In this document: positions 775 through 49,272 of the stretch, in pieces
Numbering within the stretch: position 1 is the stretch's first letter
Layout: the number at the start of each line of letters is the position of its first letter
Translations under genes and position numbers: made by a program
The notes under the pieces: generated by a model
Databases searched by the model: none
What the model was told of the DNA's origin: nothing
What the model saw: the letters and a program-made list of their open reading frames with translations, nothing else
Assembly (NCBI GenBank): GCA_024742605.1
Contig: JANSYC010000029.1
Location: 1-49,272, forward strand
Direction: 5' to 3'
DNA: 49,272 nucleotides
Source of the DNA: Alphaproteobacteria bacterium
GTDB taxonomy: Bacteria; Pseudomonadota; Alphaproteobacteria; Thalassobaculales; Thalassobaculaceae

Positions 775-944
775 TGCAGATCGATCTCCGACGCGCCCAT
801 CGAAGGATATGGCCGATCCTGACCCTGGTTCTGCTCGCGGGATTCCTGGCGGCGCTCCTGCTCCGTCCGACGCTTCCGGTCGAGACCACGCCGGTGCCGA
901 GCTTCAAGGGCTCGGCGGACCCACGGACCGGGAGGACCGGGTGA
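774..944 (+). CDS. 56-aa single-helix membrane protein, redox operon gene 2
   Basis: A 56-aa protein with a basic start (MQIDLRRAHRR), one strong membrane helix at about residues 13-30 and a short polar tail. The orientation should be N-in by the positive-inside rule. Its ATG overlaps the stop of the gene before, and its own stop overlaps the GTG of the gene after (GTGA at 941-944). Being locked between two overlapping genes is the main evidence that it is real. It has no recognised domain. It may be a small subunit or an anchor for the downstream Rieske/haem protein. Confidence 0.55.
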   Translation: MQIDLRRAHRRIWPILTLVLLAGFLAALLLRPTLPVETTPVPSFKGSADPRTGRTG

Positions 945-2014: not shown

Positions 2015-2772
2015 GCCGGCGTCCGTTCTTTGTCGGCTATCTGGCGATGCCGCGCGCGCTCGCCATGTTCCTGGCGGTGGTCACCGGCGTATTGTTGGGG
2101 ACGGGCGCGGTCGTTGCGACGGTGACAGTCCAGGAGCAAAATGACTGGGGCGACGGCGGCTTTCAGTGGGGAGAGGGACGACAGACCCGAACCGGCATCG
2201 TTATGGCGGACCCGTATCCCGTTCTGTTCCTGCCGCCGAATGCGGACCATCCTTTTGGTCAGACGCTTCCCCTGTCCGGGGCCGGCAAGACTGGCGTTCA
2301 GACGAGTGCCCGGGAGATGCAGGGCGCTCCGGTCGATGTCTCCGGAATCATCCTGCGCCGGGATGATTTCGAGATGATTCAGGTGTCCGGCAACAACGGC
2401 CTGGTGGCGGCGGCCGATCCGGCGCCTCTGGCCGGTTGGAGCGGCCCGGAGATCGAAGCTTTAGGCCGGGTCACGCTCAAGGGCGAGCTCTTGGACAGCA
2501 AATGCTTTCACGGGGCGATGCGTCCTGGGGAAGGCAAGACCCACAAGCTGTGCGCCAATCTGTGCCTCATCGGCGGCGTGCCGTTGACCTTCATGATCCG
2601 CCGGCCGGACGGCAGCGTGGAATCCCTGCTGATGGCCGATCAGGAGGGCCAGGAGGTCACGGGCCCGCTGCTCGACCATGTTTCCCAGTTTGTCGAGCTG
2701 ACGGGCGAGCTGGAGCGACGGGGCGACCTTTTGGTGTTCAAAGTCGATCCTGAGACGGTTCGTCGACTTTGA
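2011..2772 (+). CDS. Membrane-anchored protein with conserved Cys/His motif, redox operon gene 4
   Basis: A 253-aa protein with an N-terminal membrane helix at residues ~15-37 and a large, presumably periplasmic, domain. The notable part is a compact motif at residues 162-186: DSKCFHG, a conserved-looking RPGEGKTHK stretch, then CANLC and IGGV. Asp162, Cys165, His167, His178, Cys181 and Cys185 could bind a metal or cluster. I believe this motif recurs in proteins encoded beside Rieske proteins, but I cannot name a characterised family. The ATG overlaps the stop of the haem/Rieske gene (ATGA at 2011-2014), so the two proteins are likely partners. Confidence 0.7.
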   Translation: MSRRPFFVGYLAMPRALAMFLAVVTGVLLGTGAVVATVTVQEQNDWGDGGFQWGEGRQTRTGIVMADPYPVLFLPPNADHPFGQTLPLSGAGKTGVQTSAREMQGAPVDVSGIILRRDDFEMIQVSGNNGLVAAADPAPLAGWSGPEIEALGRVTLKGELLDSKCFHGAMRPGEGKTHKLCANLCLIGGVPLTFMIRRPDGSVESLLMADQEGQEVTGPLLDHVSQFVELTGELERRGDLLVFKVDPETVRRL

Positions 2773-2848: not shown

Positions 2849-4039
2849 TTGGCCCTACCCGAAACTCCGGACTTCGAATCCTATCCCGTGCATCAGAGGC
2901 TTGTTTCCGCGGCGGTTGAGCGGGGGGGCGTGCGCCTGCATTGGGCGGATGGGGGCCACTGTCTCTACCATCCTCTGACCTTGCGCGAACACGCCCCGGA
3001 TCCGGAGACAACCCACCCGGTCACGCGTGAACAATCCTTGATGTTGATCGATATCCCGGCTGGTCTTGAAGCGGCTTCGGCGGATGTCGATGGCGAGGGA
3101 GCATTGCAGGTCCGCTGGTCGACCGGGGAGGACAGCCGGTTTCACCCCGGCTGGCTGCGGGCACATGCCCCCGATCTGATGGGGGTGCCGGAAGAAGACC
3201 GGGATCCGCTGCCCGCGCGGGTGACCTGGGCCGGCGGGTTCGCCAATCAGATCCCGCGCCTTCACGGACCCGACGTGGTCGCGGGCGGACCCGCCCGTGA
3301 GGCGTGGGCCGAAGCGCTGCAGGTCTGGGGGGTCGCGATCCTGGAAGGGCTTGATGCCACGCCCGAGGTGGTCGAGACGGTGCCCGCCCTGCTGGGGCCG
3401 ATCCGGGAGACCAATTTCGGTAAGTTCTTCGATGTGATTTCGAAGCCGGATGCGGACTCGAACGCGTACACCTCCATGGCCTTGCCGCTGCACGTGGATC
3501 TGGCCACGCGGGAGTCCATGCCCGGCCTGCAGTTCCTGCATTGTATGAGCAATGAGGCGGATGGCGGCGACAGTATTCTGTCCGATGGGTTCTATCTGGC
3601 CGAGTGCCTGCGCGCAGAAGAACCTGAGCTGTTCGAGGCCCTGACCACCGTTCAGGTCACCGCCGCCAGCAAGGCCAAGTCCACCGATTACCGCTGGACC
3701 ACGCCGATCATCGGGACGGATGAGACCGGGGCGGTTTCCGAAATCCGTTGGAACCCCTGGCTGCGGGCGCCGATGAAAGCGTCCTTCGACGATGTGGACA
3801 AGGTCTATCGGGGACTCCGCTTCCTGTTTGAGCTGTCTGAGCGTCCTGAAAGCCGGGTGGTCACGCGTCTGGGCGCCGGTGACATGCTGTCATTCGACAA
3901 CCGCCGGGTTCTGCATGGCCGGACCGGTTATGACCCGAGTACCGGAGAACGCCGTTTGCGTGGCTGCTACGTCGACCGAGAGCATTTGACCTCAAGCCTG
4001 CGGATCGCCGAACGGCGCAAGAGGGCGGCACTCGTCTAG
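2849..4039 (+). CDS. Gamma-butyrobetaine hydroxylase-like Fe(II)/2-oxoglutarate dioxygenase
   Basis: A 396-aa protein of the TauD/TfdA superfamily with the two-part layout of gamma-butyrobetaine dioxygenase: an N-terminal DUF971-like region (residues ~15-110, with the RFHPGWLR type of strand) and a C-terminal catalytic domain. The iron triad is visible as H215-x-D217 (LPLHVDL) and the distal His356 (RRVLHGRTGY). The flanking pattern of PGLQFLHC and GGDSILSDGF is typical of this subfamily. The substrate is likely a trimethylammonium compound such as gamma-butyrobetaine or an analogue; the exact substrate cannot be told. The start is TTG 2849 after AGCGAGGAGAG. It lies 76 bases after the redox operon and may be co-transcribed with it. 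Confidence 0.85.
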   Translation: MALPETPDFESYPVHQRLVSAAVERGGVRLHWADGGHCLYHPLTLREHAPDPETTHPVTREQSLMLIDIPAGLEAASADVDGEGALQVRWSTGEDSRFHPGWLRAHAPDLMGVPEEDRDPLPARVTWAGGFANQIPRLHGPDVVAGGPAREAWAEALQVWGVAILEGLDATPEVVETVPALLGPIRETNFGKFFDVISKPDADSNAYTSMALPLHVDLATRESMPGLQFLHCMSNEADGGDSILSDGFYLAECLRAEEPELFEALTTVQVTAASKAKSTDYRWTTPIIGTDETGAVSEIRWNPWLRAPMKASFDDVDKVYRGLRFLFELSERPESRVVTRLGAGDMLSFDNRRVLHGRTGYDPSTGERRLRGCYVDREHLTSSLRIAERRKRAALV

Positions 4040-5637: not shown

Positions 5638-6396
5638 TCAGGTCACCGACAGCCGCACCATGCCCCCGTCGACCGGCACGTGCACGCCCGTGATGTAGCG
5701 GGCCCGATCCGAGACCAGAAAGGCGACCAGGTCCGCGAGTTCCTGCGGCTCGCCGAACCGGCCCATCGGGATATCCTTGATCTGGCCGGCCCGCGACTCT
5801 TCCGTGGGAAACAGGCGGTTCAGGATCTGGTCGCTGTTGATGCGTCCGGGCGCGACGCAGTTCACCGTCACCCCGTCGGGCGCGACTTCCGAGGCCAGGC
5901 TTCGGGACCAACTGACAAGGGCGACTTTCGCGGGTGTGGCCGCGTTGACCGCCCGCTGGACCAGGGCACCGGAGATGTTCACCACCCGCCCCCATCGGGC
6001 GGTCCGCATGCCAGGCAGCAACGCCTCGGTCATCCGTCGAGCTGAAGAAAAATTCAGCGCAAAGGCCTCCTCCCAGAAGGCGTCGTCGGCGTCCTTCGGC
6101 ATCGGTCGGGATGCGCCCGCATTGTTCACGAGGATGTCGATGCCGCCATACTGCGCTGTCGCGGTCTGCGCCACCGACCCCACACCGTCTGCGGTCGAAA
6201 GGTCGCCCGTCACCATGGCCGGGGCTTCCGCACCTGTCGCCGCGATCTCGTCCCGGACGAGGGTGAGCTTTTCAAGATTGCGCGCGGCAATGACCAAACG
6301 GGCCCCCTCGGCAGCAAGAACATGCGCGACCGCGTGGCCTATCCCCGCGCTGGCCCCGGTCACCAAGGCGCGTTTGCCCGCGATACCCAAATCCAT
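5638..6396 (-). CDS. Short-chain dehydrogenase/reductase without the canonical Tyr
   Basis: A 252-aa Rossmann-fold SDR. The cofactor site is standard (TGASAGIG near residue 14, NNAG in the middle), Ser is present in NISGAL, and the PG motif with VPVDGGM near the end is typical. However, the YxxxK active-site motif is not there: the corresponding stretch reads NAATPAKVALVSWSRS, leaving the Lys but an Ala where Tyr should stand. A subset of SDRs shares such a replacement, so it may be an atypical reductase or a non-catalytic binder. The ATG at 6396 has GGAGA upstream. It follows the amidohydrolase gene by 31 bases and is probably in its operon. Confidence 0.85.
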   Translation of the reverse strand: MDLGIAGKRALVTGASAGIGHAVAHVLAAEGARLVIAARNLEKLTLVRDEIAATGAEAPAMVTGDLSTADGVGSVAQTATAQYGGIDILVNNAGASRPMPKDADDAFWEEAFALNFSSARRMTEALLPGMRTARWGRVVNISGALVQRAVNAATPAKVALVSWSRSLASEVAPDGVTVNCVAPGRINSDQILNRLFPTEESRAGQIKDIPMGRFGEPQELADLVAFLVSDRARYITGVHVPVDGGMVRLSVT

Positions 6397-6427
6397 GATC
6401 TATCTCCAATAAACAGGCCACGCACGG

Positions 6428-7876
6428 TCAGTTCAGCGAACTCCGGGTTTCAAAGACCATCGGCGCCATCTCGTCCACCGTCCGGCCCGCCCAGTCCCGT
6501 TTGGAGATGCTGGTGAAGGACCGCTCCTGGGCGGCCTGGAGCTCGGCGAGCGCGCTCGGCATATCGATCGTGGTCACGGCACCATCCTTCACCACGCGTG
6601 TGCCATCGACGAACACGTCCCGCACGCCGCGATCGGTGGCGGCGTAGATCAGGGAGCGGATCGGCTCCCGCACCGGCATCATGGAGGGGGCAGTGAGATC
6701 GACGCAGACCAGATCGGCCCGCGCGCCGACCGTCAGTTTGCCGATATCGTCGCGCCGGAGTGCCTTGGCGCCGCCAACAGTCGCAGCGTTGAAGATGTCT
6801 GAGGTGTTGAGATCGTCCACCGTTTCGGCCACGGCGCGGGCAACGGTGGCCACGTTCCGCATCTCCTCCAGGAAGTTGTGCGGGTAGGTATCCGTGCCGA
6901 TTCCCATGTTGATTCCCTCGCGCACATAGCCGCCGAAAGTGCGCAGAGCTATGCCCCGCCGCATGAACACGGTCGGGCAATGGGCCACGGTGGTGGCGCT
7001 GTCCGCCAGGATCCGGAGATCGTCTCGGGTCGACCAGTGGACCCAGGGGTGATGGTCCAGAAAAATTCCGTGACCGATGATCGCATGTTCGCCCACCGCG
7101 CCAATTTCCTTCATCCACTGCACGGGCGTCTTGCCGTGACGGCGGACGATTTCGTGGAACTCTGTCACCGATTGGGCGGCATGGGTCTGCCAGGGCAGAT
7201 TCTTCTCTTCCGCGAAGTCATAGGAGTCCCGCAACAGATCGGCGGAACAGGTATCCACCTGAGACGGCGCCACCATCCCCATCAGCCGTCCACTGGGATG
7301 CTGGGCCGCCAGATCGATGATCCGCTGGGCCGCCTCGAAGCCTTTCTGACCGGCCTCTTCGTCCCATTCGTACTGCAATTTGTGACCGTCATTGGTGAAC
7401 CAGCGTGCATCCCGGAACATCGGCGCCACACAGGCGCGAATGCCGCAGCCGGCCAGCACGTCCAACCAGCTTTCGAACGGGATCGAGTAGTCGACCACAG
7501 TGGTGACGCCGCTTTGCAACAGTTCCGCCATGGCGACCTGGAGGCTGGCGGCGAGGCCTGCCGGGTCGTTCTCGAAAATCGTCAGAAACTCGTAGAGAGA
7601 GGAGTGGTAGAAACCCGGAGAGCGGATTTCGTCCGTGACGCCCTTGCGGAGTGGTTCGCTGGTCGGGTGGCTGTGGATGTTGATCAGGCCGGGCATCACC
7701 ATCCGGTCGCTGCCGTCCAGTTCCTCGTGGACCTCGCCGGTATAACGCCCACCGACCTGGAGGATTGCCCCATCCGCAAAAACGACGTCTCCACCCTTGA
7801 TGTAGATATGACGGCTCTCTTTGGCATCCCAGGCGACAATCCAGGCAGCATTGCGGATCACGGTGGTCCGGGTCAT
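6428..7876 (-). CDS. Amidohydrolase-family metal-dependent hydrolase/deaminase
   Basis: A 482-aa amidohydrolase of the ATZ/TRZ-like (chlorohydrolase/cytosine-deaminase related) group. Metal and catalytic sites are visible: the HxH strand GLINIHSHP, a His in WQTHAAQS, a His in IIGHGIFLDHH and an Asp in GTDTYPHN. The small composite domain at both ends (VFADGAILQVGG and GARADLVCVDL) is also typical. It should hydrolyse a C-N bond of a cyclic or guanidine-like compound; the substrate is unknown. I chose ATG 7876 with GGAG upstream over an earlier frame opening at 7981. It is transcribed with the SDR gene and preceded by a dyad at 7973-7994. Confidence 0.85.
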   Translation of the reverse strand: MTRTTVIRNAAWIVAWDAKESRHIYIKGGDVVFADGAILQVGGRYTGEVHEELDGSDRMVMPGLINIHSHPTSEPLRKGVTDEIRSPGFYHSSLYEFLTIFENDPAGLAASLQVAMAELLQSGVTTVVDYSIPFESWLDVLAGCGIRACVAPMFRDARWFTNDGHKLQYEWDEEAGQKGFEAAQRIIDLAAQHPSGRLMGMVAPSQVDTCSADLLRDSYDFAEEKNLPWQTHAAQSVTEFHEIVRRHGKTPVQWMKEIGAVGEHAIIGHGIFLDHHPWVHWSTRDDLRILADSATTVAHCPTVFMRRGIALRTFGGYVREGINMGIGTDTYPHNFLEEMRNVATVARAVAETVDDLNTSDIFNAATVGGAKALRRDDIGKLTVGARADLVCVDLTAPSMMPVREPIRSLIYAATDRGVRDVFVDGTRVVKDGAVTTIDMPSALAELQAAQERSFTSISKRDWAGRTVDEMAPMVFETRSSLN

Positions 7877-9061: not shown

Positions 9062-10672
9062 TCAGATGTTCTTGAAGAAGTCGTTGCCTTTATCGTCGAC
9101 CACTATGAAAGCCGGGAACTTCTCGACCTCAATCCGCCAGACCGCTTCCATGCCCAGTTCGGGGAACTCCTGAACCTCGACCTTCTTGATCGAATTCAAC
9201 GCCAGTTTGGCTGCCGCCCCGCCGACCGAGCCGAGATAGAATCCGCCGTGCTTATGACAGGCTTCGCGCACGACCGGCGACCGATTGCCCTTGGCGAGGG
9301 TCACGAAACTGCCGCCATTGGCCATAAACGGTTCCACATAGCTGTCCATGCGGCCCGCCGTCGTCGGCCCGAAGGAGCCGCTGGCATAGCCTTCCGGTGT
9401 CTTGGCCGGACCGGCGTAGTAGATCGGGTGGTTCTTGGCGTAGTCAGGAAGCGGCTTGCCGGCGTCCAGCAGTTCCTTGAGCTTCGCGTGCGCGATGTCG
9501 CGGGCGACGATCATCGGACCGGTCAGCGAGACCCGGGTCTTGATCGGATACTGCGACAGGGTCCTGCGGATCTCCTCCATCGGCTGGTTCAGGTCGATTT
9601 CGACGGCTCCGGACGTCAGGGTGTTTTCGTCGATGTCCGGAAGGTACTTGGCCGGATCGGTCTCCAGTCGCTCCACGAAGACACCGTCCCGGGTGATCTT
9701 GCCGACCGCCTGACGGTCCGCCGAACAGGAGACGCCTATCCCGATCGGGCAACTGGCGCCGTGGCGGGGTAGCCGGATGACGCGCACATCATGACAGAAA
9801 TATTTGCCGCCGAATTGCGCGCCGATCCCCATCTCTCGGGTCATCTGCAGGATCTTCTGCTCCCACTCCAGATCGCGGAACGCGTGACCGCTGTCCGAAC
9901 CCTGGGTCGGCAGCCCGTCGAGATACCGGCAAGAGGCAAGCTTCACCGTCTTCATACAGAATTCGGCCGAGGTGCCGCCGATCACGATCGCGAGATGGTA
10001 CGGCGGACAGGCTGCGGTGCCGAGGGTGCGAATCTTCTCGTCAAGGAACTTTGCCAGCGAGTCTGGATTCAGCACCGCCTTCGTCTGCTGGAACAGGAAG
10101 GATTTGTTGGCGGATCCGCCGCCCTTCTGAACGAACAGGAATTTGTAGGCGTCGCCCTTGTCCGCATAGAGCTCGATCTGGGCAGGCAGATTGGTGCCGG
10201 TGTTCTTCTCCGTGAACATGTCCAGCGGTGCCAGTTGGCTGTAGCGCAGGTTGTGGTTCAGATAGGTGTTGTGGACACCAAGCGCCAAGGCCTCTTCGTC
10301 GTCGAAGCCGGTGAACACACCCTGACCCTTCTTGCCCATGACGATGGCGGTGCCGGTGTCCTGGCACATCGGCAGCACCCCGCCGGCCGCGATAGAAGCG
10401 TTCTTCAGCAGGTCGTAGGCCACGAAGCGATCGTTCTCCGATGCCTCATCATCCTCGAGAATGTTGCGCAGCATCTGGAGGTGGCTTGGCCGCAGCAGAT
10501 GGGAGATGTCGCGAAAGGCGTGCTCGGCCAGCGTGGTGAGCGCTTCCGGCTGGATCGTGAGCACATTCCGGCCACCCAGTTTCTCGACCGCGACATGATC
10601 GGTGGTGACCTGACGGTATTCGGTCTGATCGGGGGCAAGCGGAAACAGCTCGGTGAAATCAAACGCCGCCAT
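9062..10672 (-). CDS. fumA: Class I (iron-sulfur) fumarate hydratase
   Basis: A 536-aa class I fumarase of the single-chain FumA/FumB type, catalysing fumarate to L-malate in the TCA cycle. The N-terminal cluster-binding domain shows [16 protein letters not shown] and a second Cys region in [19 protein letters not shown]. The C-terminal domain shows [13 protein letters not shown] and the [16 protein letters not shown] stretch. Full length for the family with no disruption. ATG 10672 follows a strong AGGGAGGA. The cluster makes the enzyme oxidant-sensitive by family knowledge. sspB lies just upstream on the same strand. Confidence 0.95.
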
Positions 10673-24831: not shown

Positions 24832-26628
24832 ATGACGAAACCCCGCTCGTCGACCGCCCGCCGCGACGCGGCACCCCGCACCATGAGTGGTGCGGCCGTT
24901 ATTCTCGAAGCACTGAAGGATCAGGGTGTTGAGGTCATCTTCGGCTACCCCGGCGGGGCGGTATTGCCGATCTATGACGAAATCTTCAAGCAGAACGCGA
25001 TCCGCCACATCCTCGTGCGGCACGAGCAGGCTGCGGTGCATGCCGCCGAAGGTTATGCCCGCTCCACCGGCAAGGTGGGCTGCGTGCTGGTGACCTCCGG
25101 GCCGGGCGCCACCAATGCCGTGACCGGACTGACCGATGCGTTGATGGACAGCATTCCGCTGGTCTGTCTGACCGGTCAGGTGCCGACCCATCTGATCGGC
25201 AATGATGCCTTTCAGGAGGCCGACACGACCGGAATCACCCGTCCGTGCACCAAGCATAACTATCTGGTGAAGCAGCCGGAGAAACTGGCCGAGGTGATGC
25301 ACGAGGCCTTCTACGTGGCGGCCCATGGCCGTCCGGGGCCAGTGGTCGTCGATCTGCCGAAGGATATCCTGTTCGCCGAGTGTCCTTATGAGGGACCCGA
25401 AAACGTCGAGCCAAAGGCGTATCGTCCGCAGGTCAAGGGAGACAGCGCGGCGATCGAGCGCGCGGTCGAGCTGATCGCCAAGGCGAAGCGGCCGATCTTT
25501 TACGGCGGCGGCGGTCTGATCAACGCCGGCCCGAATGCGTCCAAGATGTTCACCGACCTGGTGCGCAAGGTCGGCGCGCCGGCGACCCTGACCCTCATGG
25601 GCCTTGGCGCGTTCCCGGCCTCGGACAAGAGGTTCCTCGGCATGCTGGGCATGCACGGCACCTACGAAGCCAACATGTCGATGTACGAATGCGATGTGAT
25701 GGTCTGCATCGGCGCGCGGTTCGATGACCGGGTGACCGGACGGCTGGATGCGTTCTCGCCGAACTCGACCAAGATCCACATCGATATCGACCCGTCCTCC
25801 ATCAACAAGAACGTGGCAGTGGACCTGCCGATCATCGGTGACGCGGCAAGTATCCTCGAGGACATGCTCAAGGTCTGGAAGTCCAAGGGATACAGGTCAA
25901 ACGACAAGCCCCTGGCCGACTGGTGGGGCAAGATCGAAGCTTGGCGCAGCAAGAACTGTCTCGCCTACAGCCAGACCAGCCAGATCATCAAACCGCAACA
26001 CGCCATCCGTCGGCTGTTCGAGAAGACCCAGGGAATGGACTGCTACATCACGACCGAAGTCGGTCAGCACCAGATGTGGGCAGCCCAGTACTATAATTTC
26101 GACGAGCCGAACCGGTGGATGACCTCCGGCGGCCTCGGCACCATGGGATACGGGTTCCCAGCGGCCATGGGCGTGCAGATCGCGCATCCCGACGCCCTGG
26201 TGGTGGATATCTCGGGGGAGGCCAGCTTCATGATGAATATGCAGGAGCTGTCCACGATGATTCAATACAAGCTCCCGGTGAAGGCGTTCATCATCAATAA
26301 TCAGTGGATGGGCATGGTCCGCCAGTGGCAGGAGCTGATCCACGGCGCCCGCTATTCGGAGAGCTATTCCGAGGCCCTGCCGGACTTCGTCAAGCTGGCG
26401 GAAGCTTTTGGGGGAGTTGGTCTGCGGGCAACTGCGCTGGACGAGCTGGACGACGTTATTGATGAGATGATCGCGACCCCGCATCCGGTGCTGGTCGATG
26501 TCTGCGTCACCAAGGACGAGAACTGCTTCCCGATGATCCCGTCGGGGGCGGCCCATTTCGAGATGCTGCTTGGCCCGAACGACCATGCTGAAAAGCCGAC
26601 CTCCGAGCGAGGCATGGTTCTGGTCTAA
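24832..26628 (+). CDS. ilvB: Acetolactate synthase large (catalytic) subunit
   Basis: A 598-aa ThDP enzyme that condenses pyruvate (or pyruvate and 2-ketobutyrate) in valine, leucine and isoleucine synthesis. The catalytic Glu lies in LVRHEQAAVHAAEGYARSTGKVG, FAD-region patterns are seen mid-chain (VCIGARFDDRVTGRLD), and the ThDP motif near the end reads DISGEASFMMNMQELSTM with NNQWMGMVRQWQ. Length is typical. ATG 24832 follows CCGGAGGACCGGAG. The regulatory subunit ilvH and ilvC follow. The window has a second, Rieske-linked ThDP enzyme at 46336 that is not this one. Confidence 0.96.
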   Translation: MTKPRSSTARRDAAPRTMSGAAVILEALKDQGVEVIFGYPGGAVLPIYDEIFKQNAIRHILVRHEQAAVHAAEGYARSTGKVGCVLVTSGPGATNAVTGLTDALMDSIPLVCLTGQVPTHLIGNDAFQEADTTGITRPCTKHNYLVKQPEKLAEVMHEAFYVAAHGRPGPVVVDLPKDILFAECPYEGPENVEPKAYRPQVKGDSAAIERAVELIAKAKRPIFYGGGGLINAGPNASKMFTDLVRKVGAPATLTLMGLGAFPASDKRFLGMLGMHGTYEANMSMYECDVMVCIGARFDDRVTGRLDAFSPNSTKIHIDIDPSSINKNVAVDLPIIGDAASILEDMLKVWKSKGYRSNDKPLADWWGKIEAWRSKNCLAYSQTSQIIKPQHAIRRLFEKTQGMDCYITTEVGQHQMWAAQYYNFDEPNRWMTSGGLGTMGYGFPAAMGVQIAHPDALVVDISGEASFMMNMQELSTMIQYKLPVKAFIINNQWMGMVRQWQELIHGARYSESYSEALPDFVKLAEAFGGVGLRATALDELDDVIDEMIATPHPVLVDVCVTKDENCFPMIPSGAAHFEMLLGPNDHAEKPTSERGMVLV

Positions 26629-37658: not shown

Positions 37659-38822
37659 ATGTCTCAGTTCGAGTTCAACCGACGTATGTTTCTGCAAAGT
37701 GCCGCTGCCACCGTGGGAGTTGCGGCCGCGTCGCGCATGGCTCCGGCCTTTGCCGCAGGGGATGAAATCCGTCTCTGGTCGGCGCCGATCATGCGGCCGT
37801 TCGACACCTGGGAGCCGTTTGAGAAGGCCTCTGGCGTCAAGATCGCCTGGAGCCCGAAGAGCGCCAGCGCCGACGAAGCCTTGTCCAAGATGATGGTCGG
37901 TGACGGAAAGAAACTCTACGACGCGTTCACAGACAATGGCGGCGGCATGGAGGACGCGATGGCCCAGAACGGCGTGATCGCCGAGCTGGACACCTCGCGC
38001 ATGAAGAATTGGGGTCTGCTCCGTGCCGAAGTGGCGGATCCCAAGGGCGCCGCGGGGCATTCGATCCGATCCGACGGCAAGGTCTACGCGGTCCCCTATA
38101 TCGCGAACGCCGACAGCCTTGCGTACAACAAGACGGAACTCGGTCAGGATTACGATAGCTGGGAAGTTCTGTTCAGCCCGGAAATGAAGGGCAAGGTTGC
38201 CCTGCAGAACGATTTCGGACCGACCATGACGGTCACGGCGATTTATCTGCATGCCAAGGGCATGATGGATATCAAGGACCGGTCCAACATGACCAAGGAC
38301 GAGGTCCAGGGCGTGGCTGAGTTCCTGATCGAGAAGAAAAAGGACGGCCAGTTCCGTACCTTCTGGAACGGGTTCCAGCAGGGCGTCGATCTGTTGGCCT
38401 CCGGCGAAGTGATGATGATGTCCTGTTGGGAGCCGATTCAGCGGGTTGCCGCCAAGAAGTCCGGGCAGAACGTGGTCTACGGCACCATGAAAGAGGGCCA
38501 TCAGGTCTGGAACAACGTGGTTATGCTGACCCAGGACGCGGCCGATCGCGGCGTGGACGAGGCCTTCTACAAGATGGCAGATACCTGCCTGTCTCCCTGG
38601 TACACCACCCGCCAGCTCTCCCGCTTCGGCTTCGCGTCTCTGACCACCGGTATGGTCGAGTACTTGGAGGCGCATCCGGACGATTTCGATGTGGCAAACC
38701 TGAAAGAGACTCTGGAACTGAAGAATCAGCGCTACGCCGTGAAGGGCAATGCGTGGCAGAACGTCTACCCGACGGAATTGCGGGCCTATCAGGAGTGGTG
38801 GTCCCGCGTTCAAGCTGCCTGA
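37659..38822 (+). CDS. Tat-exported substrate-binding protein of a polyamine-type ABC importer
   Basis: A 387-aa PotD/PotF-like periplasmic binding protein. The N-terminus carries a twin-arginine signal (FNRRMFLQSAAATVGVAAA, cleavage probably after AFAA). The body has the class D solute-binding features (PYIANADSLAYNKTELGQDYDSWEVLF and EVMMMSCWEP). By family it binds polyamines or similar cations; the ligand is not certain. It is preceded by a strong AGGAGGGGG ribosome site and heads a four-gene import operon. Confidence 0.88.
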   Translation: MSQFEFNRRMFLQSAAATVGVAAASRMAPAFAAGDEIRLWSAPIMRPFDTWEPFEKASGVKIAWSPKSASADEALSKMMVGDGKKLYDAFTDNGGGMEDAMAQNGVIAELDTSRMKNWGLLRAEVADPKGAAGHSIRSDGKVYAVPYIANADSLAYNKTELGQDYDSWEVLFSPEMKGKVALQNDFGPTMTVTAIYLHAKGMMDIKDRSNMTKDEVQGVAEFLIEKKKDGQFRTFWNGFQQGVDLLASGEVMMMSCWEPIQRVAAKKSGQNVVYGTMKEGHQVWNNVVMLTQDAADRGVDEAFYKMADTCLSPWYTTRQLSRFGFASLTTGMVEYLEAHPDDFDVANLKETLELKNQRYAVKGNAWQNVYPTELRAYQEWWSRVQAA

Positions 38823-38849
38823 TCCAACCCAGGACCGGATAACGCAGGC

Positions 38850-39782
38850 ATGACGACCGCACAAAGCGGCGAGGGGGACGCGGCGCTCCCTCGCTCGAAT
38901 TCAAAGCGATCCTTCTGGCAAAACCTCGTGGACGATGAGGGACCGGGCAAACTGGTTCTCTGGATTCCGCTTGTGTTTATGGTCGTGTTCTTTCTGATAC
39001 CGCTTGCGCTGACCCTGGTGTGGAGTGTCTTCGAGCGCACCATGTTCTGGATGGAGCCGGGGTTCACTTTTGCGGCCTATGGGGACTTCTTCAACTCAGG
39101 CCGGATCGACAGTTTTCTGAACTCCATCAAGTCCGCTGCCATCACCGTTGCGATCGCGTTTTGTCTGGGATTTCCGATCGCGGTGTTCGTACGGCGGTCG
39201 CTCCCCGTGCATGCACAGCATCAGGCGATCTTGCTGTTCATTCTGCCGTTCATGATTTCGGAAGTCATACGGCTGTTCGCCCTGCGACCGGTCCTGGGAC
39301 GAAACGGAATCCTGAACGATGCTCTGATGTCGCTTGGCCTGGTGGATGAACCGCTCTCGGTTTTCCTGTTCACGCCGACGGGGGTGGTGATCGGTGAGGT
39401 CCTGTCGTTCCTGCCGTTCATGGTGTTCTGCGGGTTCCTCGCGATGGAGGCGGTTCCTGGCTACGTGTTCGAGCTCTGCGACGACATCGGATCCGGACTC
39501 GTGTCGACCATGCGGCGGGTGATTATTCCCTTGGCTGCGCCCGGGATCTTCGCGGCCTCGATCTTCATATTCGTGAACTCGCTCGGCCTGTTCCTTGTAC
39601 CGGATCTGCTCGGCGGACCGGGGGCGGCAAACGCCGGCACATTGGTGGTCAATGCCATCGCCGCGCTCGATTTCCCGCTGGCCATGGCGATCGCGGCGAT
39701 CATGGTCGCGATGATGGTGGTGCTGCTGTGGATCGGCCACCGGATGTTCGACCTGACCAAGCTGCTGGAGCCGTTCAAGTGA
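38850..39782 (+). CDS. ABC transporter permease, PotB-like
   Basis: A 310-aa inner-membrane permease with about six helices. It starts with a hydrophilic ~30-residue N-terminal tail, then the first helix LVLWIPLVFMVVFFLIPLALTLVWS, and contains the permease EAA-type loop near EAVPGYVFELCDDIGSGLVSTMRRVIIPLAAPG. It lies 27 bases after the binding protein. Its TGA overlaps the GTG of the second permease. PotB-like by order and size. Confidence 0.88.
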   Translation: MTTAQSGEGDAALPRSNSKRSFWQNLVDDEGPGKLVLWIPLVFMVVFFLIPLALTLVWSVFERTMFWMEPGFTFAAYGDFFNSGRIDSFLNSIKSAAITVAIAFCLGFPIAVFVRRSLPVHAQHQAILLFILPFMISEVIRLFALRPVLGRNGILNDALMSLGLVDEPLSVFLFTPTGVVIGEVLSFLPFMVFCGFLAMEAVPGYVFELCDDIGSGLVSTMRRVIIPLAAPGIFAASIFIFVNSLGLFLVPDLLGGPGAANAGTLVVNAIAALDFPLAMAIAAIMVAMMVVLLWIGHRMFDLTKLLEPFK

Positions 39783-40603
39783 GCCACGATTACGAGAGCC
39801 CGTGGCTGTACCGGGCAAAATGGCTCTATCTGCTGACAATCGTCGGGGTCCTGATGCTGCCGGTGTTCTACACCCTCTGGATCTCGTTCAATCAAAACGG
39901 CTTCGGCGCGGCGGAGTACGATTTCACCTTCTTCTGGTACGGCGCGCTGTTCGAGAACGACGAGATCCGGGTGGCTTTGGGATGGACGGTCCTGATCGCC
40001 CTGATCGTAGTGGGGATCACGGTGCCGATGGGCGTGCTGGCCGCGAAATTCTACCAGCGCACCCGTTTCAAGGTCCTGTTCGTGTTTCTGATGCTGTCGC
40101 CGCTGTTCGTGCCGGCCGACATCACCGCAGCAGCCCTGCTGGTCTACTTCAAGAACCTGAATGCGATGATCGACGGGCTGATCGGGATTGAGGTGTTTGA
40201 TCTGGGGCTTTGGAGTGCGGTGGTCGGCCAGATCACCTGGTGTCTTCCCTACGCGTTCGTGGTGATTCTGGTGACCATGGGACGGTTCCGGCCGGAGCAG
40301 ACCGAGGCCGCCCGGACCTGTGGCGCGGATGCCTGGCAGGCCTTCTGGCAGATCGAGTTTCCGCAGATCCGGCCCGGCGTGTTCTCCAGCTGCGCCTTTG
40401 TGGTGATCCTGTCGTTCAACGAGTACGTCCGGACCAATTTCCTCAAGGGCGGGTTCGATACCTTCCCGACCTATCTGGTCTCCTACATGCTCAACACCGG
40501 CATGACACCCGAGGTCTATGCCATGGCGGGACTCGTCAGCATGGTCTCGATGGCTGCGATCGCCCTGGTCCTGATTCTCGCCCTCAGCAGGAGAGCCGCA
40601 TGA
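39779..40603 (+). CDS. ABC transporter permease, PotC-like
   Basis: A 274-aa permease starting at GTG 39779, overlapping the previous stop (GTGA). It has about six helices, the first being WLYLLTIVGVLMLPVFYTLWISF, and the EAA-like loop QTEAARTCGADAWQAFWQIEFPQIRPGVFSS. This matches the PotC/ModB-like second permease of polyamine importers. Its stop overlaps the ATPase start (ATGA), so all three membrane and ATPase genes are coupled. Confidence 0.88.
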   Translation: MSHDYESPWLYRAKWLYLLTIVGVLMLPVFYTLWISFNQNGFGAAEYDFTFFWYGALFENDEIRVALGWTVLIALIVVGITVPMGVLAAKFYQRTRFKVLFVFLMLSPLFVPADITAAALLVYFKNLNAMIDGLIGIEVFDLGLWSAVVGQITWCLPYAFVVILVTMGRFRPEQTEAARTCGADAWQAFWQIEFPQIRPGVFSSCAFVVILSFNEYVRTNFLKGGFDTFPTYLVSYMLNTGMTPEVYAMAGLVSMVSMAAIALVLILALSRRAA

Positions 40604-41676
40604 ACGCCCAAGCGCAATTCCCCGCCGCCCTGCTGCCGGCGGTCGAGGTCGAGGGGATTTCCAAGACCTATGGGCCGGTGACGGCCTTGAAGCCGACCAG
40701 CTTCAGCATTCCAGCCGGTCGGTATTTCGTGCTGTTGGGACCGTCGGGCGGCGGCAAGACCACGACCCTGCGCATGATCGCGGGTTTGATCCGCCCGACC
40801 ACAGGCCGGGTGAAGATCGCTGGACGCGACGTGACGGATCAGCCTGCCAACCGGCGCGACACCGCGATGGTGTTCCAGGGGTATGCCCTGTTCCCGCACA
40901 TGTCGGTCGAGCAGAACGTGGCCTATGGGCTGGAACTGCGGAAAATGTCTCGCGAGCAGATCCGCGAACGGACGCATGAGATGCTGCGGCTGGTCGGCCT
41001 GTCCGGCTTCGAGGCGAGGCGGCCGACCGAACTTTCCGGTGGCCAGCAGCAGAGGGTTCAGTTGGCCCGGGCGCTGGTGCTGGAAACCTCAATCGTGCTG
41101 CTGGATGAACCGCTGGCGGCGCTGGATGCCACTTTGCGCAAGGACATGTGCTTTGAACTCAAGCACATTCAGGAAAGCGTCGGCACCACCTTCGTACACG
41201 TGACCCATAACCAGGAAGAGGCGATGACCGTCGCCGATGAGATCGCGCTGATCGCCGATGGAACCGTGGTGGAGAGCGGTGCGCCTCGGCAGATGTACGA
41301 GCGTCCGCACCGACGCTTCACAGCCGAGTTCATTGGAGAGAATGCGGTGCTCAGCGGCCCTGTCGGCCCCTCCGGCATGCGGATCGCCGGGACGTCGGTC
41401 CCGGTGCCGAGCGGTGAGCGGATTTCCGCGATTTCGGTCGCCGCCGAAAATGTCAGGCTTTCGCTGGACGGTACGGCACGAGAGGCCTGGGCTTTGCCGG
41501 CGGCCGTTGTCGACGTGTTCTACCTCGGGTTCTCGGCCTTGCTGCATGTCCAGATCGATGGTGGACCGAGCATCCCTGTGCGCCTGCGCGCGCGGGACCT
41601 GCCGGATGGACTGTCGGCGGGCACCAGAGTCTGGGTTGATTGGGACGTGGCCGAGATGCGTGGACACGTGGACTGA
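40600..41676 (+). CDS. ABC transporter ATPase, PotA-like
   Basis: A 358-aa ATPase. Walker A GPSGGGKTTTL, signature LSGGQQQRVQLARAL, Walker B IVLLDEPLAALD, and the switch His in VTHNQEEAMTVAD are all intact. The C-terminal ~100 residues form a TOBE-like regulatory domain. It powers uptake through the two permeases encoded just upstream. The ATG has AGGAGAG upstream. Confidence 0.92.
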   Translation: MNAQAQFPAALLPAVEVEGISKTYGPVTALKPTSFSIPAGRYFVLLGPSGGGKTTTLRMIAGLIRPTTGRVKIAGRDVTDQPANRRDTAMVFQGYALFPHMSVEQNVAYGLELRKMSREQIRERTHEMLRLVGLSGFEARRPTELSGGQQQRVQLARALVLETSIVLLDEPLAALDATLRKDMCFELKHIQESVGTTFVHVTHNQEEAMTVADEIALIADGTVVESGAPRQMYERPHRRFTAEFIGENAVLSGPVGPSGMRIAGTSVPVPSGERISAISVAAENVRLSLDGTAREAWALPAAVVDVFYLGFSALLHVQIDGGPSIPVRLRARDLPDGLSAGTRVWVDWDVAEMRGHVD

Positions 41677-44699: not shown

Positions 44700-46310
44700 A
44701 TGGCCAAAACGGAAGTCGCGCGCCTGGATGCGCTGGGAGACCGCGATCCGACCTACGCGATTGTGGGTGAGGTCGATCTCGTGGTGGTCCGGTTCGACAA
44801 CGATGTCTCTGTCTTCTACGGCCGATGCCTGCATCGCGGCGCACTGATGGCAGATGGGTTCGTGCGCGGCAACAATCTGATCTGTGGTGTTCACGACTGG
44901 GACTATCGCCTCGACACCGGGGTTTCCGAATACGCCAATGACGAGAAGCTGCCGAAGTTCAAATCCTGGATTGAGGACGGCGCCGTCCTGGTCGACGCGG
45001 ATGAGATCAATGGCTGGGCCCAGGATAATCCGCAGCCATTCGATCGTGACGCTTATTTGGGGCTGTATGCGGATACCAGTCACGGCACCGAGGAGGAGCC
45101 TTATGCCGGGCTGATCCAAACCTATGCGCGGGACGGTCTGTCGAAGACCGGTCATCACGGTATGGTCGATGCCATGGGCGTGCGGCGCGGTCAGTTACCG
45201 GATTGGGATGATATTCAGCTGATCACCGCTCAGCTGCATCGCGGGCCGCTGCTGGAAGAGGAACCGGTCGGCACCGACGTGCTGATCGGCCCGAACGCAC
45301 AGAAACCGCTCCGCCTGGAGATCCCTTTGCTTGTGTCCGACATGAGCTTTGGCGCCCTGTCCGAGCCCGCAAAGGTGGCGCTGGCGCGCGACGCCGAGCT
45401 GGCGGGAACCGGCATCTGTTCGGGCGAGGGTGGCATGCTGCCGGAGGAGCAGGCGGAGAATTCCCGTTACTTTTACGAACTCGCCTCAGCACGCTTCGGC
45501 TTCAGTTGGGAGAAACTGGCGGACGTGCAGGCCTTCCACTTCAAGGGCGGCCAGGGAGCAAAGACCGGAACTGGCGGCCATCTGCCGGGTGCCAAGGTGA
45601 AGGGAAAGATCGCCGAAGTGCGCGGCCTGGAGGAGGGGCAGGACGCGATCTCGCCGCCACGGTTTCCAGACTGGACCGAGATTTCGCAGATCAAGGATTT
45701 CGCGGACCAAGTGCGCGACCGCACCGGCGGAATTCCGATCGGCTACAAGCTCTCTGCCCAACATATCGAGAAGGATATCGACGCGGCCATAGAAGTCGGG
45801 GTCGACTACATCATCCTGGACGGACGCGGTGGTGGTACCGGCGCCGCCCCGGTGATTTTCCGCGACAACATTTCTGTGCCGACCATCCCGGCCTTGGCGC
45901 GGGCGCGGCGACATCTTGATCGCTTGGGGCGTGACGACATCAGCCTGGTGATCACCGGCGGGCTTCGTAAACCGGCTGATTTCGTGAAGGCTCTGGCATT
46001 GGGGGCGGACGCAGTCGCGATCTCCAATTCGGCCATGCAGGCGATCGGCTGTATCGCCATGCGGGCCTGCCATACCAACAACTGTCCGGTTGGGATCGCG
46101 ACCCAAAAGCCGCATCTGGTCTCTCGTCTGGTGGTTGAGCAATCGGCGCTTCGGCTCAAGAACTTCTTCGATGCCTCGGTTGAGCTTATGCAGGTAATGG
46201 CGCGGGCCTGTGGCCACGATCACCTGTCCGGTTTTGATCTGGAAGACCTGACGACGTGGAAGAAGGATATGGCCGAGCTGTCGGGTGTGCCTTTTGGTGG
46301 GGTTGCCTAG
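44700..46310 (+). CDS. Rieske domain fused to an FMN/[3Fe-4S] glutamate-synthase-type domain
   Basis: A 536-aa fusion. Residues ~5-100 are a Rieske-like domain with C43-x-H45 and C62-x2-H65. From ~170 on is the glutamate synthase central/FMN barrel (GTGICSGEGGMLPEEQ, HFKGGQGAKTGTGGHLPG, YIILDGRGGGTGAAP). The three Cys of the [3Fe-4S] motif, C451-x5-C457-x4-C462, are complete (CIAMRACHTNNCPVGIATQ). There is no glutaminase domain, so an amide nitrogen cannot come from its own chain. By family it should pass electrons between FMN and the clusters and act on an amino/keto acid; the substrate is unknown. ATG 44700 has ACGAGGA upstream. The next gene, 25 bases on, also begins with a Rieske domain. 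Confidence 0.85.
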   Translation: MAKTEVARLDALGDRDPTYAIVGEVDLVVVRFDNDVSVFYGRCLHRGALMADGFVRGNNLICGVHDWDYRLDTGVSEYANDEKLPKFKSWIEDGAVLVDADEINGWAQDNPQPFDRDAYLGLYADTSHGTEEEPYAGLIQTYARDGLSKTGHHGMVDAMGVRRGQLPDWDDIQLITAQLHRGPLLEEEPVGTDVLIGPNAQKPLRLEIPLLVSDMSFGALSEPAKVALARDAELAGTGICSGEGGMLPEEQAENSRYFYELASARFGFSWEKLADVQAFHFKGGQGAKTGTGGHLPGAKVKGKIAEVRGLEEGQDAISPPRFPDWTEISQIKDFADQVRDRTGGIPIGYKLSAQHIEKDIDAAIEVGVDYIILDGRGGGTGAAPVIFRDNISVPTIPALARARRHLDRLGRDDISLVITGGLRKPADFVKALALGADAVAISNSAMQAIGCIAMRACHTNNCPVGIATQKPHLVSRLVVEQSALRLKNFFDASVELMQVMARACGHDHLSGFDLEDLTTWKKDMAELSGVPFGGVA

Positions 46311-46335
46311 GCAGCCTTTGGACCGGGAGATCGCG

Positions 46336-48312
46336 ATGAATGAGCAGATCTTGAACTGGGTCGCGGTCGCCGCCGAGGGCGAACTTCCCGAAGGTCGGGT
46401 CAAGACCGTCACAGCCGGTACCAAGACCCTGTGCCTGTCCCATTTCGAGGGCAAATGGGCGGCGATGGACAATCGGTGTCCGCACCAGGGCGGACCGCTC
46501 GGCGAAGGCTCTATCGAGACTGGGAGCGACGGCAAGTGCTGGATTCGCTGCCCCTGGCACGGCTGGGATTTTGATCCGCTGACAGGCGCCCCTCCGGGAG
46601 GTCATGAGGACAGCGGACAGGAGGTCTTTCCGGTCAAGGTGGAGGACGGCAGGATCCTGGTCGGCCTGGAACCGGAGCCGGACCATGTCCGCACCGTCAC
46701 CGACGCCATGGCCGAGACCATGGTGAACTGGGGCGTCAAGCGGGTGTTCGGTATGGTCGGGCACTCCAACCTCGGCCTTTCGGAGGCGATCCGTCGCCGC
46801 ACGGTGGCGGGTGAGATGTCCTATGTCGGTATCCGGCATGAAGGGGCCGCCGCCTTTGCCGCCTCTGCCTATGGCAAGCTGACCGGGCGGCCTGCCGCCT
46901 GTCTGGCAATTGCGGGGCCGGGGGCGACCAACCTCCTGACGGGGCTCTGGGATGCCAAGGTCGACCGGTCGCCGGTGCTGGCATTGACCGGACAGGTTCA
47001 GACCCAGGTTTTTGGGCCCGGCGCATTCCAGGATATCGACCTCAAATCCGCGTTCCAAGGCGTGGCGCGGTTCTCGCAACCGGTGCTCGCAGGCTCCAGA
47101 CATGTCGAGCTGATGACGTTGGCGTGCAAGACCGCGATCGTCGAACGGGACGTGGCCCATCTGATATTGCCCGATGATGTCCAGACGGTTTCGAGCGACG
47201 CTCCCGCGGGTGGCCCGAACGGGCGTATCGGTGGAGCCGCTGTGATCCCGGCGGAAGAGGACGTCGCGGCCGCCGCCGAGATGATCAACGCGGCGAAGCG
47301 CCCGATCTTCGTCATGGGCCACGGAGCGGTCGAGGCGCGCGGGGCGGTGATCGATCTCGCCGAGCGGCTGGGTGCTCCGGTGCTGACCACCTTCAAGGGA
47401 AAGGGCCTGATCCCCGACACCCATCCGAATGCGGCGGGTGTCCTGGGGCGTTCCGGAACGCCGATCGCGAGCTGGTTCATGAATGAGGCCGACTTGATCA
47501 TCGCGCTCGGCTCGTCCTTTGCGAACCACACTGGGATCGAGCCAACGAAGCCGATTATTCAGGTGGATTTCGAGCGCATGCAGTTGGGCAAGTTTCATCC
47601 CGTGGCGCTGCCGATCTGGGGGGAGCTGTCGGCATTTTGCACCGCTCTCCTACCGCGGCTTGTGGCCGCTGCCGACAGGGCCGACCAGGTGTCGGAGTTG
47701 GTAGACCGGTGGCGGATATGGCGCGCCGAGAAGGAGACTCGACGTTCCGAAACCCGGGGCCGTGGCGTGCATTCGGCCGCGCTCTTCCAGACACTGTCTG
47801 AACTCTGTCCGGAAGACGCAATCATCGCCGTTGACGTTGGCAATAACACCTATTCGTTCGGGCGCTATTTCGAGCCGCGGGGCCAGCGCGTGCTGATGTC
47901 GGGGTATCTCGGATCGATCGGTTTCGGTTTCCCCGCGGCCATGGGTGCCTGGGCTGCAACACAGGATTTCGTGGAATACGCCGGGCGCAAGGTGATCTGC
48001 ATTTCCGGGGACGGCGGCTTTGGCCAATACGCGATGGAAGTTACCACGGCCGTGAAATACGGCATGGACATCACCCATGTCCTTCTCAACAACGCCGAAC
48101 TCGGCAAGATCTCGAAAGAGCAGAGGGCGGGTGACTGGCCGGTGTGGGAGACCAGTCTGGTCAATCCCTCATTCTCTGCGTTCGCACGGTTGTGTGGCGG
48201 CAAAGGGGTGAAGGTGACGGATGCGAACGCGTTCGCCGCCGCCTTCACCGATGCCTTACGGTATCCCGGACCAGCTTTGGTCGAGGTCGAGACCGACGTG
48301 GAACTGATTTAG
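46336..48312 (+). CDS. Rieske domain fused to a ThDP-dependent pyruvate oxidase/acetolactate synthase-like enzyme
   Basis: A 658-aa fusion. Residues 1-110 are a Rieske domain with C48-x-H50 and C72-x2-H75 (RCPHQGGPLGEG and CPWHGWDFDP). From ~118 a three-domain ThDP enzyme follows: pyrimidine-binding domain with catalytic Glu169 (GIRHEGAAAFAASAYGKLTG), a central domain (~315-440) and the pyrophosphate-binding domain with GDG 558-560 and NN 585-586. All ThDP motifs are intact. It resembles pyruvate oxidase or 2-oxo acid decarboxylating enzymes with a Rieske electron outlet; the substrate is not known. ATG 46336 has GGGAGA upstream. It is 25 bases after the Rieske-FMN gene, so the two are one operon. 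Confidence 0.88.
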   Translation: MNEQILNWVAVAAEGELPEGRVKTVTAGTKTLCLSHFEGKWAAMDNRCPHQGGPLGEGSIETGSDGKCWIRCPWHGWDFDPLTGAPPGGHEDSGQEVFPVKVEDGRILVGLEPEPDHVRTVTDAMAETMVNWGVKRVFGMVGHSNLGLSEAIRRRTVAGEMSYVGIRHEGAAAFAASAYGKLTGRPAACLAIAGPGATNLLTGLWDAKVDRSPVLALTGQVQTQVFGPGAFQDIDLKSAFQGVARFSQPVLAGSRHVELMTLACKTAIVERDVAHLILPDDVQTVSSDAPAGGPNGRIGGAAVIPAEEDVAAAAEMINAAKRPIFVMGHGAVEARGAVIDLAERLGAPVLTTFKGKGLIPDTHPNAAGVLGRSGTPIASWFMNEADLIIALGSSFANHTGIEPTKPIIQVDFERMQLGKFHPVALPIWGELSAFCTALLPRLVAAADRADQVSELVDRWRIWRAEKETRRSETRGRGVHSAALFQTLSELCPEDAIIAVDVGNNTYSFGRYFEPRGQRVLMSGYLGSIGFGFPAAMGAWAATQDFVEYAGRKVICISGDGGFGQYAMEVTTAVKYGMDITHVLLNNAELGKISKEQRAGDWPVWETSLVNPSFSAFARLCGGKGVKVTDANAFAAAFTDALRYPGPALVEVETDVELI

Positions 48313-48694: not shown

Positions 48695-49272
48695 TCAGTC
48701 CTTCACCACCATCGGCCGGGGGAAATCGTAGAAGCATTCGGAGCCGGTCTCGGTGATCCGAAAGCATTCCGAAATCTCGATCCCGCAATCGTCCAGCATC
48801 AGGCCGGGGATCATGTGGAAGGTCATGTTCGGCTGGATTACGGTCCGGTCGCCCGGGCGCAGGCTCATGGTGTGCTCGCCCCAGTCCGGCGGGTAGTTCA
48901 GCCCGACCGAGTAGCCGATCCGGCTTTCCTTCTCGAAACCGGACTTCGCCAGTTCTCGGCGCCAGGCGGCTTCGACGTCCTCGCACGTCGCCCCCGGCTT
49001 GGCGGCGTCCAGAGCGGCGGCGATTCCGTCGCAGATCACCGCGCTGGCATCGGTCAGCTTCTGCGGCGGCTTGCCGAGCGAGACCGTCCGCGCCATCGGG
49101 CAGTGGTAGCGCCGTCGCACGCCCGCCAGTTCCAGAATCGTCGCCTCGCCGTGCTGGAACGGGGCGTCTGACCATGTGAGATGTGGGGTGGAGGCTCCGA
49201 CGCCCGAGGGCAGCATCGGCACGATGGCCGGATAGTCGCCGCCGATCGCGTCGACGCCGCGGATCGCGGTGT
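48695..49272 (-). CDS. M24-family metallopeptidase, DoeA/ectoine hydrolase-like (partial, cut by window end)
   Basis: The last 578 bases encode the C-terminal part of an M24 (creatinase/aminopeptidase-fold) protein; its start lies beyond the window. In-frame reading from the edge gives AIRGVDAIGGDYPAIV then PMLPSGVGASTPHLTW, and later SVGLNYPPDWGEHTMSL, NMTFHMIPGLML and GIEISECFRI. These match the ectoine hydrolase DoeA and related Xaa-Pro-type peptidases as I recall them; the assignment to ectoine use is tentative. Convergent with the Rieske-ThDP operon apart from the intervening 39-aa gene. Confidence 0.75.
   Translation of the reverse strand, partial: TAIRGVDAIGGDYPAIVPMLPSGVGASTPHLTWSDAPFQHGEATILELAGVRRRYHCPMARTVSLGKPPQKLTDASAVICDGIAAALDAAKPGATCEDVEAAWRRELAKSGFEKESRIGYSVGLNYPPDWGEHTMSLRPGDRTVIQPNMTFHMIPGLMLDDCGIEISECFRITETGSECFYDFPRPMVVKD

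Follow-up and report, generated by a model that had tools for sequence, protein, structure and literature searches.

Two adjacent Rieske-bearing enzymes and a membrane Rieske/ferric-reductase-like protein: a possible shared electron network in Alphaproteobacteria

Why should two unrelated enzymes, encoded side by side, each begin with a Rieske iron-sulfur domain? The question is raised by a 49,272-nt contig (JANSYC010000029.1, assembly GCA_024742605.1; the whole stretch is called the window below) from an Alphaproteobacteria bacterium of the Thalassobaculaceae. It encodes P1, in which a Rieske domain is joined to a glutamate-synthase-type flavin mononucleotide (FMN)/3Fe-4S domain, and P2, in which another is joined to a thiamine diphosphate (ThDP) enzyme. 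Rieske domains are known from bc complexes, oxygenases, and oxygenase ferredoxins. The answer that we favor, at a chance approaching even, is that P1 and P2 are both soluble redox enzymes, connected by their interchangeable [2Fe-2S] domains to a common hub, a heme-b protein of the membrane termed c2 here. The two genes lie 25 bases apart, as a preliminary description of the sequence had given, and a Pfam search returns both of the Rieske fusions noted there. Their features are as follows:

44700 to 46310, forward strand: P1, Rieske plus glutamate-synthase-type FMN/3Fe-4S protein, 536 aa (ATG at 44700; Pfam, alignment)
44715 to 44933, forward strand: Rieske domain of P1, C43/H45/C62/H65 (Pfam PF00355, residues 6-78, E 2.5e-10)
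45294 to 46214, forward strand: Glu_synthase FMN domain of P1 (Pfam PF01645, residues 199-505, E 6.8e-90)
46050 to 46085, forward strand: cluster cysteines of P1, motif C451-x5-C457-x4-C462, within the Glu_synthase domain
46336 to 48312, forward strand: P2, Rieske plus ThDP enzyme, 658 aa (ATG at 46336; Pfam, alignment, model)
46354 to 46590, forward strand: Rieske domain of P2, C48/H50/C72/H75 (Pfam PF00355, residues 7-85, E 1.8e-17)
46693 to 48288, forward strand: ThDP module of P2 (Pfam PF02776, PF00205, and PF02775; E 1e-30 to 1e-35)
46693 to 47046, 47263 to 47649, and 47833 to 48288, forward strand: TPP_enzyme subdomains N, M, and C of P2

Both domain matches in P1 exceed the Pfam cut-offs. 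In an alignment of 21 rows, to which three forms with CDGSH domains were added deliberately, C451/C457/C462 are kept throughout and the Rieske ligands H45/C62/H65 in 18 rows, the other three being the CDGSH forms; the intact Rieske ligands and cysteine motif reported for P1 are thus upheld. Bacterial glutamate synthase alpha subunits (1ea0, 7mfm) share with P1 the FMN domain and the three 3Fe-4S cysteines, but they have about 1500 aa, whereas P1 is far shorter, adds the Rieske domain, and is without the glutaminase (Ntn) domain (Pfam returns Rieske, Glu_synthase, and overlapping FMN/IMPDH barrel matches only). P1 also has PPRFPDWT where glutamate synthases have PPHHDIYS. Since both the glutaminase domain and this segment are missing, its substrate may differ from that of glutamate synthase. 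Neither P1 nor P2 contains the non-heme-iron catalytic domain of Rieske oxygenases (Pfam, E <= 0.001), and a crude hydropathy scan detects no membrane segment in either.

The Rieske ligands of P2 are likewise intact: C48/H50/C72/H75, together with E169, D559, and G560, are found in all 28 rows of the P2 alignment, haloarchaea included. P2 had been described as a complete ThDP enzyme, which holds for these residues and, in 26 of the 28 rows, for G558 (two haloarchaeal rows have SDG) and N586, but its N585 occurs in just 14. An AlphaFold model of P2 (mean pLDDT 82) was used for a fold search, the hit list of which hardly reached the Rieske part. The structural neighbors of the ThDP part (VIA) are the 2-hydroxy-3-keto-acid type (HKA) synthase BbmA (8xod, 8x3x; top row, Z 38.5, 30-31% identity, a comparison at the level of fold), pyruvate:quinone oxidoreductase (PQO; 9ev6) and PoxB (3eya) (both Z 38.3 and 27% identity; root mean square deviation 2.7 over 501 residues for PoxB and 3.4 over 516 for PQO), and Klebsiella acetolactate synthase (Z 37.5, 24% identity). 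These Z scores appear too close for the modeled fold to separate the four. The HKA synthase and acetolactate synthase hits are without a Rieske domain, whereas P2 has one.

Likeness to PoxB and PQO extends to E169, F231-Q232, and a glutamate at E595. The latter is invariant (28 of 28 rows), and the aligned residue is Glu in Escherichia coli PoxB and Corynebacterium glutamicum PQO and Gln in E. coli acetohydroxyacid synthase (AHAS) I; we take the position to be that of Glu483 in Lactobacillus plantarum pyruvate oxidase (POX) and Trp574 in plant AHAS. As far as an alignment can tell, E595 fits the oxidation of a 2-oxo acid. P2 differs from both enzymes in its N-terminal Rieske domain and from PoxB in having no C-terminal membrane-binding tail: its chain continues for just six residues beyond the part matched to PoxB residue 526 (of 572), so that the last ~46 residues of PoxB have no counterpart. 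The simplest reading is that P2 is an oxidase in which the quinone-docking tail has been swapped for a Rieske outlet. Its score against the NCBIfam pyruvate oxidase/PQO model (367.6 bits) lies below the cut-off of 742, as do its scores against the two best acetolactate synthase models (280 and 276 bits; cut-offs 509 and 538). The window encodes a second ThDP enzyme (24877 to 26502, forward strand), with 29% identity to the ThDP part of P2.

How regularly the two genes occur together was assessed in two samples. The first consists of the best 80 of 449 confirmed relatives from a scan of genome contigs with P1 (74-93% identity; mostly alphaproteobacteria, judged by record title). P2, at an identity of at least 55%, is present at 45 of these 80 loci. 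With simple gene calls, 52 loci are usable (P1 called and at least 5 kb on either side); 28 were dropped, five for a P1 gene missed by the open reading frame (ORF) caller and 23 for short flanks. P2 lies in 33 of the usable loci, 20 times no more than 200 bases from P1 and in its orientation and 11 times with 1.5-3.5 kb of other genes between them. Because both fusions recur side by side in other genomes, they are not chance joinings.

These loci were picked by similarity to P1 and are mutually related, so a gene-blind sample is the better test. Among 289 alphaproteobacterial genomes (full-length Rieske-P1, E <1e-250; P2, E <1e-200), Rieske-P1 is present in eight, P2 in 13, and both in seven, an overlap with a chance of ~4e-10 (hypergeometric; this and the similar figure below ignore kinship, and the seven genomes are spread over five families). 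The sole sampled Rieske-P1 genome without P2 (G361) is 67% complete. The two genes are thus not unlinked in relatives, a pattern that reaches beyond the bacteria sampled here: P1 and P2 occur together on three haloarchaeal plasmids (58-61% identity), a fourth haloarchaeal plasmid (Haloferax) has P2, with P1 not among the matches listed, and a Mycobacteroides abscessus plasmid bears P2.

The N-terminal domains themselves appear to be exchangeable. In other proteobacteria, the sister proteins of P1 at the loci read match it from about residue 125 on (64-70% identity) and start with two CDGSH motifs (Pfam zf-CDGSH confirmed in L183 and L117). In a quick tree of 52 P1 cores, Rieske forms and CDGSH forms are set apart from each other with weak branch support (53 and 70), and the two together group away from three outgroup rows; a single swap is possible. 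P2 varies as well. Four of the six genomes with P2 and no Rieske-P1 encode a long form, CDGSH-Fer4_19-CDGSH-Rieske-ThDP (L128, L175, L176, and L177), and the remaining two have CDGSH-CDGSH-Rieske-ThDP (L173) and a short form (L126). P2 was found in none of the 13 genomes in which the P1 match begins at residue 104 or later, nine of which were read as CDGSH forms. Upstream of the long-form P2 at L175 lies a dihydroxy-acid/6-phosphogluconate dehydratase-type gene (5676 to 7514), a possible lead to the substrate of that form.

Such architectures have been recorded in part. The type 5 CISD proteins catalogued by Lin et al. 2011 (PMC3174974) consist of a double CDGSH and a glutamate synthase FMN domain, and no function is stated for them in the accessible part of that paper. 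To the extent that they are described there, P1 has the same core and an N-terminal His-ligated [2Fe-2S] module, and differs in that a single Rieske domain replaces the two CDGSH motifs. In the accessible part of a second source (PMC5859297), the domains that accompany CDGSH include Rieske, Fer4_19, and Glu_synthase.

Clustering of the genes around the 80 P1 loci yields further recurrent partners, c2 to c7. In relatives c2 (~352 aa) consists of a ferric-reductase-like transmembrane domain and a C-terminal Rieske domain; c3 (~253 aa) has no Pfam or NCBIfam match at the thresholds used; c4 is a Na+/H+-exchanger-family (CPA1-type) antiporter, c5 and c6 are small membrane proteins, and c7 is DUF5996-like. 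One full order, at L064, is c4-P1-c5-c2-c3-c6-P2. Within the 52 usable loci c2 is found in 24, c3 in 21, c4 in 15, and P2 and c2 together in 14; at least one of P2, c2, c3, and c4 is found in 46. A search of the source genome with c2 and c3 places both in the window, 42 kb from P1-P2:

520 to 774, forward strand: c5a, small membrane protein similar to the N-terminal part of c5 (blastp, 47% over 72 residues)
774 to 944, forward strand: c5b, overlapping frame apparently like the rest of c5 (likeness judged by eye)
941 to 2014, forward strand: c2, ferric-reductase-like transmembrane domain plus C-terminal Rieske, 357 aa, candidate for the shared electron hub in the membrane (51% identity to the operon protein of relatives; Pfam PF01794 and PF00355)
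2011 to 2772, forward strand: c3, two OB-like domains behind an N-terminal membrane helix, 253 aa (39% identity to the operon protein of relatives)

The c5-like gene of the window is thus in two frames overlapping at TGATG, where relatives such as L064 have one; a split gene or translational coupling would account for this. The ORF directly after c3 (2849 to 4039, forward strand) has the look of a TauD/gamma-butyrobetaine-type dioxygenase.

The preliminary description had proposed, without naming it, a carrier to which both Rieske domains connect; c2 is a concrete candidate. H88/H100/H169/H182 and the Rieske residues C281/H283/C300/H303 are invariant in all 19 rows of its alignment. The two histidine pairs, spaced 12 and 13, match the spacings that we associate with two-heme ferric-reductase-type proteins, and we take the histidines to be heme ligands. 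In a crude hydropathy scan the Rieske domain falls after the last membrane segment and, read by the positive-inside rule, would face the cytoplasm. MsrQ/YedZ-type membrane cytochromes share the PF01794 domain and two His pairs, but c2 adds the C-terminal Rieske, and the c2 of L064 scores 41.8 bits against the 130-bit MsrQ cut-off.

The partner c3 is modeled as one membrane helix followed by two oligonucleotide/oligosaccharide-binding (OB)-like domains (mean pLDDT 89), and its residues C165/M170/H178/C181/C185 are invariant (22 of 22 rows), a pattern that could form a metal site. A fold search gave no match in the Protein Data Bank at E <= 0.001, the best being weak hits to OB-fold single-strand-DNA-binding proteins (E 0.003 and up). 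Likeness to a sporulation protein, seen with two chains of one entry (profile E 0.009 and 0.05), was regarded as chance. The C-terminal domain also exists as a small separate protein: at L224, L225, and L228, proteins of 141-173 aa resemble the Cys-rich domain of c3 and lie near genes of a cluster that has SCO1/SenC as its tested member, hinting at periplasmic copper or thiol chemistry.

Full-length c3 is present in 14 of the 289 genomes: in all seven with P1 and P2 (chance ~1e-10, hypergeometric), in none of the six with P2 alone, and in seven others. It lies ~18 kb from P1 in G307 and G428 and on another contig in G408 and G506, and since it is present even at such distances, the association exceeds a shared neighborhood.

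In the mechanism that these data suggest to us, P1 and P2 would belong to one system; in each, the ferredoxin-type Rieske [2Fe-2S] domain at the N terminus would serve as a plug for electrons. The pyruvate-oxidase-like P2 would decarboxylate a 2-oxo acid, with the ThDP intermediate losing its two electrons singly through the Rieske cluster, an exit standing in for a C-terminal tail that docks on the membrane to reach quinone. In P1, the FMN, 3Fe-4S, and Rieske centers may form a chain through which electrons are taken up or given off while a small acid or an amino/imino acid is converted. Because P1, P2, and c2 share one domain type, c2 would be their natural meeting point. It could exchange electrons with both enzymes through a cytoplasmic Rieske domain atop a two-heme-b ferric-reductase-type domain and pass electrons to the pool of quinones or through the membrane in the direction of c3; we lean towards P2 as donor and c2 as acceptor. 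Observed are the domains, the conserved cofactor ligands, the genetic linkage, and the co-occurrence; heme and cluster occupancy, the topology of c2, contacts between the proteins, electron flow, and substrates are inferred. Considered more broadly, these proteins may represent a modular network, in which chemically unrelated enzymes, each carrying an exchangeable Rieske or CDGSH plug, would all dock on one Rieske/heme-b protein of the membrane that has a partner outside the cytoplasm. Decarboxylation of a 2-oxo acid would then feed the membrane directly, needing neither NADH nor a tail that binds quinone. This wider proposal is a tentative one, its chances clearly below even.

Several observations weigh against a shared hub. 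Rieske-P1 occurs without P2 in all seven f28 genomes checked (five with full-length and two with partial P1; completeness 69-99%), and P2 occurs without P1 in six of the 13 P2 genomes of the sample. Since each occurs alone, neither enzyme needs the other everywhere; the paired pathway proposed earlier keeps its conserved gene pair, but a strict form of it is disfavored. Within the stretches covered, P2 is without c2 in 19 of the 52 usable loci and c2 without P2 in ten, and the three haloarchaeal plasmids with P1 and P2 carry no full-length c2 (the plasmids alone were searched). The seven other genomes with c3 have neither P1 nor P2 found in them, so the membrane module has other uses too. No pathway is enriched in the wider neighborhood, according to a Pfam tally of 139 near and 114 far proteins. 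Deduplication had left 285 near and 377 far proteins, and 140 of each were picked at random; one very long protein was then excluded from the near picks and 26 from the far ones (25 belonging to plasmid-collection records, one to the window), leaving the sets unmatched, with plasmid-record proteins kept in the near set and removed from the far. To inspection by eye, the middle domain of P2 speaks neither for nor against bound FAD, a cofactor that bears on the exit of electrons from the ThDP intermediate. Finally, a Rieske or CDGSH domain could equally be a sensor.

This last point leads to an alternative that we consider unlikely but that deserves attention, in which the Rieske and CDGSH domains act as switches that sense redox state or oxidants and control the activity of the enzymes, and in which a stress response, not an electron-transfer chain, is the context of P1, P2, and the antiporter. 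Both are His-ligated [2Fe-2S] domains, which are labile and pH-sensitive. MsrA (L168) and glutathione S-transferase (GST; L171) genes lie beside Rieske-P1, and pirin (L186) and FMN reductase (L184) genes beside CDGSH-P1; haloarchaeal plasmid genes are annotated, in varying sets, as mercury(II) reductase, pirin, DsrE family, and quinol monooxygenase. Genes of one cluster, with an extracytoplasmic function (ECF)-type sigma factor as its tested member, recur at seven loci, and the frequency of the CPA1-type c4 would suit a stress response. Such hints (the plasmid neighbors and the single MsrA, pirin, FMN reductase, and GST genes) first suggested a stress island, a reading demoted to a rival when the same tally gave no clear stress enrichment near versus far: PMSR and GST_N_2 each account for two of the 139 near proteins, and neither is among the best 25 of 138 families in the far set. 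Sensing switches also leave unexplained the Rieske membrane protein that travels with the pair and the 3Fe-4S ligands kept in P1.

The plasmids with P1 and/or P2 (L114-L116, L150, and L151) carry, again in varying sets, dihydrofolate reductase, M20 hydrolase, and TauE/SafE exporter genes as well, giving them the look of oxidant-stress islands. That the antiporter also accompanies the pair beyond the bacteria was considered and rejected: the antiporter beside P2 at L116 matches c4 weakly (33% over 106 residues, E 6e-6), and that of the M. abscessus plasmid has no meaningful match to it (E 0.46). Directly after the CDGSH-P1 gene at L183 is an MscS-type mechanosensitive channel gene (9265 to 10545); this channel and c4 hint at an ion or osmotic link.

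We regard it as quite improbable that P1 and P2 act independently of each other in a single catabolic or nitrogen pathway, served by a soluble Rieske/ferredoxin reductase of the host, with c2 and c3 as mere neighbors. The separate occurrence of each enzyme, the 42 kb between c2/c3 and P1-P2 in the window, and the haloarchaeal plasmids that pair the enzymes without a full-length c2 agree with independence, but mere neighbors would not be expected to follow the pair as c3 does, in seven of seven genomes against 14 of 289 overall, even when not adjacent. That the pair is no more than a conventional glutamate synthase (P1) and acetolactate synthase (P2), their N-terminal domains being decorative, is very improbable: the core folds agree, but P1, without a glutaminase domain, scores only 135.7 bits against the cut-off of 1047 for the NCBIfam glutamate synthase equivalog while a separate glutamate-synthase-type frame of 1649 codons lies elsewhere in the genome, and P2 is under the NCBIfam cut-offs of the best 25 of 56 families, acetolactate synthases included.

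Other genes close to the pair in the window were considered as parts of the system and rejected. An ABC transporter set (37659 to 41676, forward strand; binding protein, two permeases, and ATPase) is of polyamine type judging from its top NCBIfam matches, none of which reaches the cut-off, and only its ATPase falls in a cluster of at least four loci (generic ABC-ATPase, six loci). Convergent with P2 and cut by the window end is the C-terminal part of the ectoine hydrolase DoeA (48695 to 49222, reverse strand; TIGR02993, 241 bits against a cut-off of 613), which is in no cluster of at least four loci.

Every single domain in this set of proteins is known, and one sister architecture has been catalogued. 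The preliminary description knew of no characterized system of this layout; none was found in the literature either, but the CDGSH sister of P1 had been on record since 2011 (PMC3174974, as far as accessible). No description of the Rieske-ThDP fusion, the Rieske-glutamate synthase fusion, or the operon was found in a search that had most subscription papers and bioRxiv preprints outside its reach.

Taken as a whole, the system has a real chance of being an electron network of a new kind. If the proposed wiring is correct, ThDP chemistry would have a new outlet in the Rieske domain, and electrons a new way into the respiratory membrane through a Rieske/heme-b protein common to two enzymes. A testable context would thereby be gained for the type 5 CDGSH-glutamate-synthase proteins, which combine the core of P1 with another plug.

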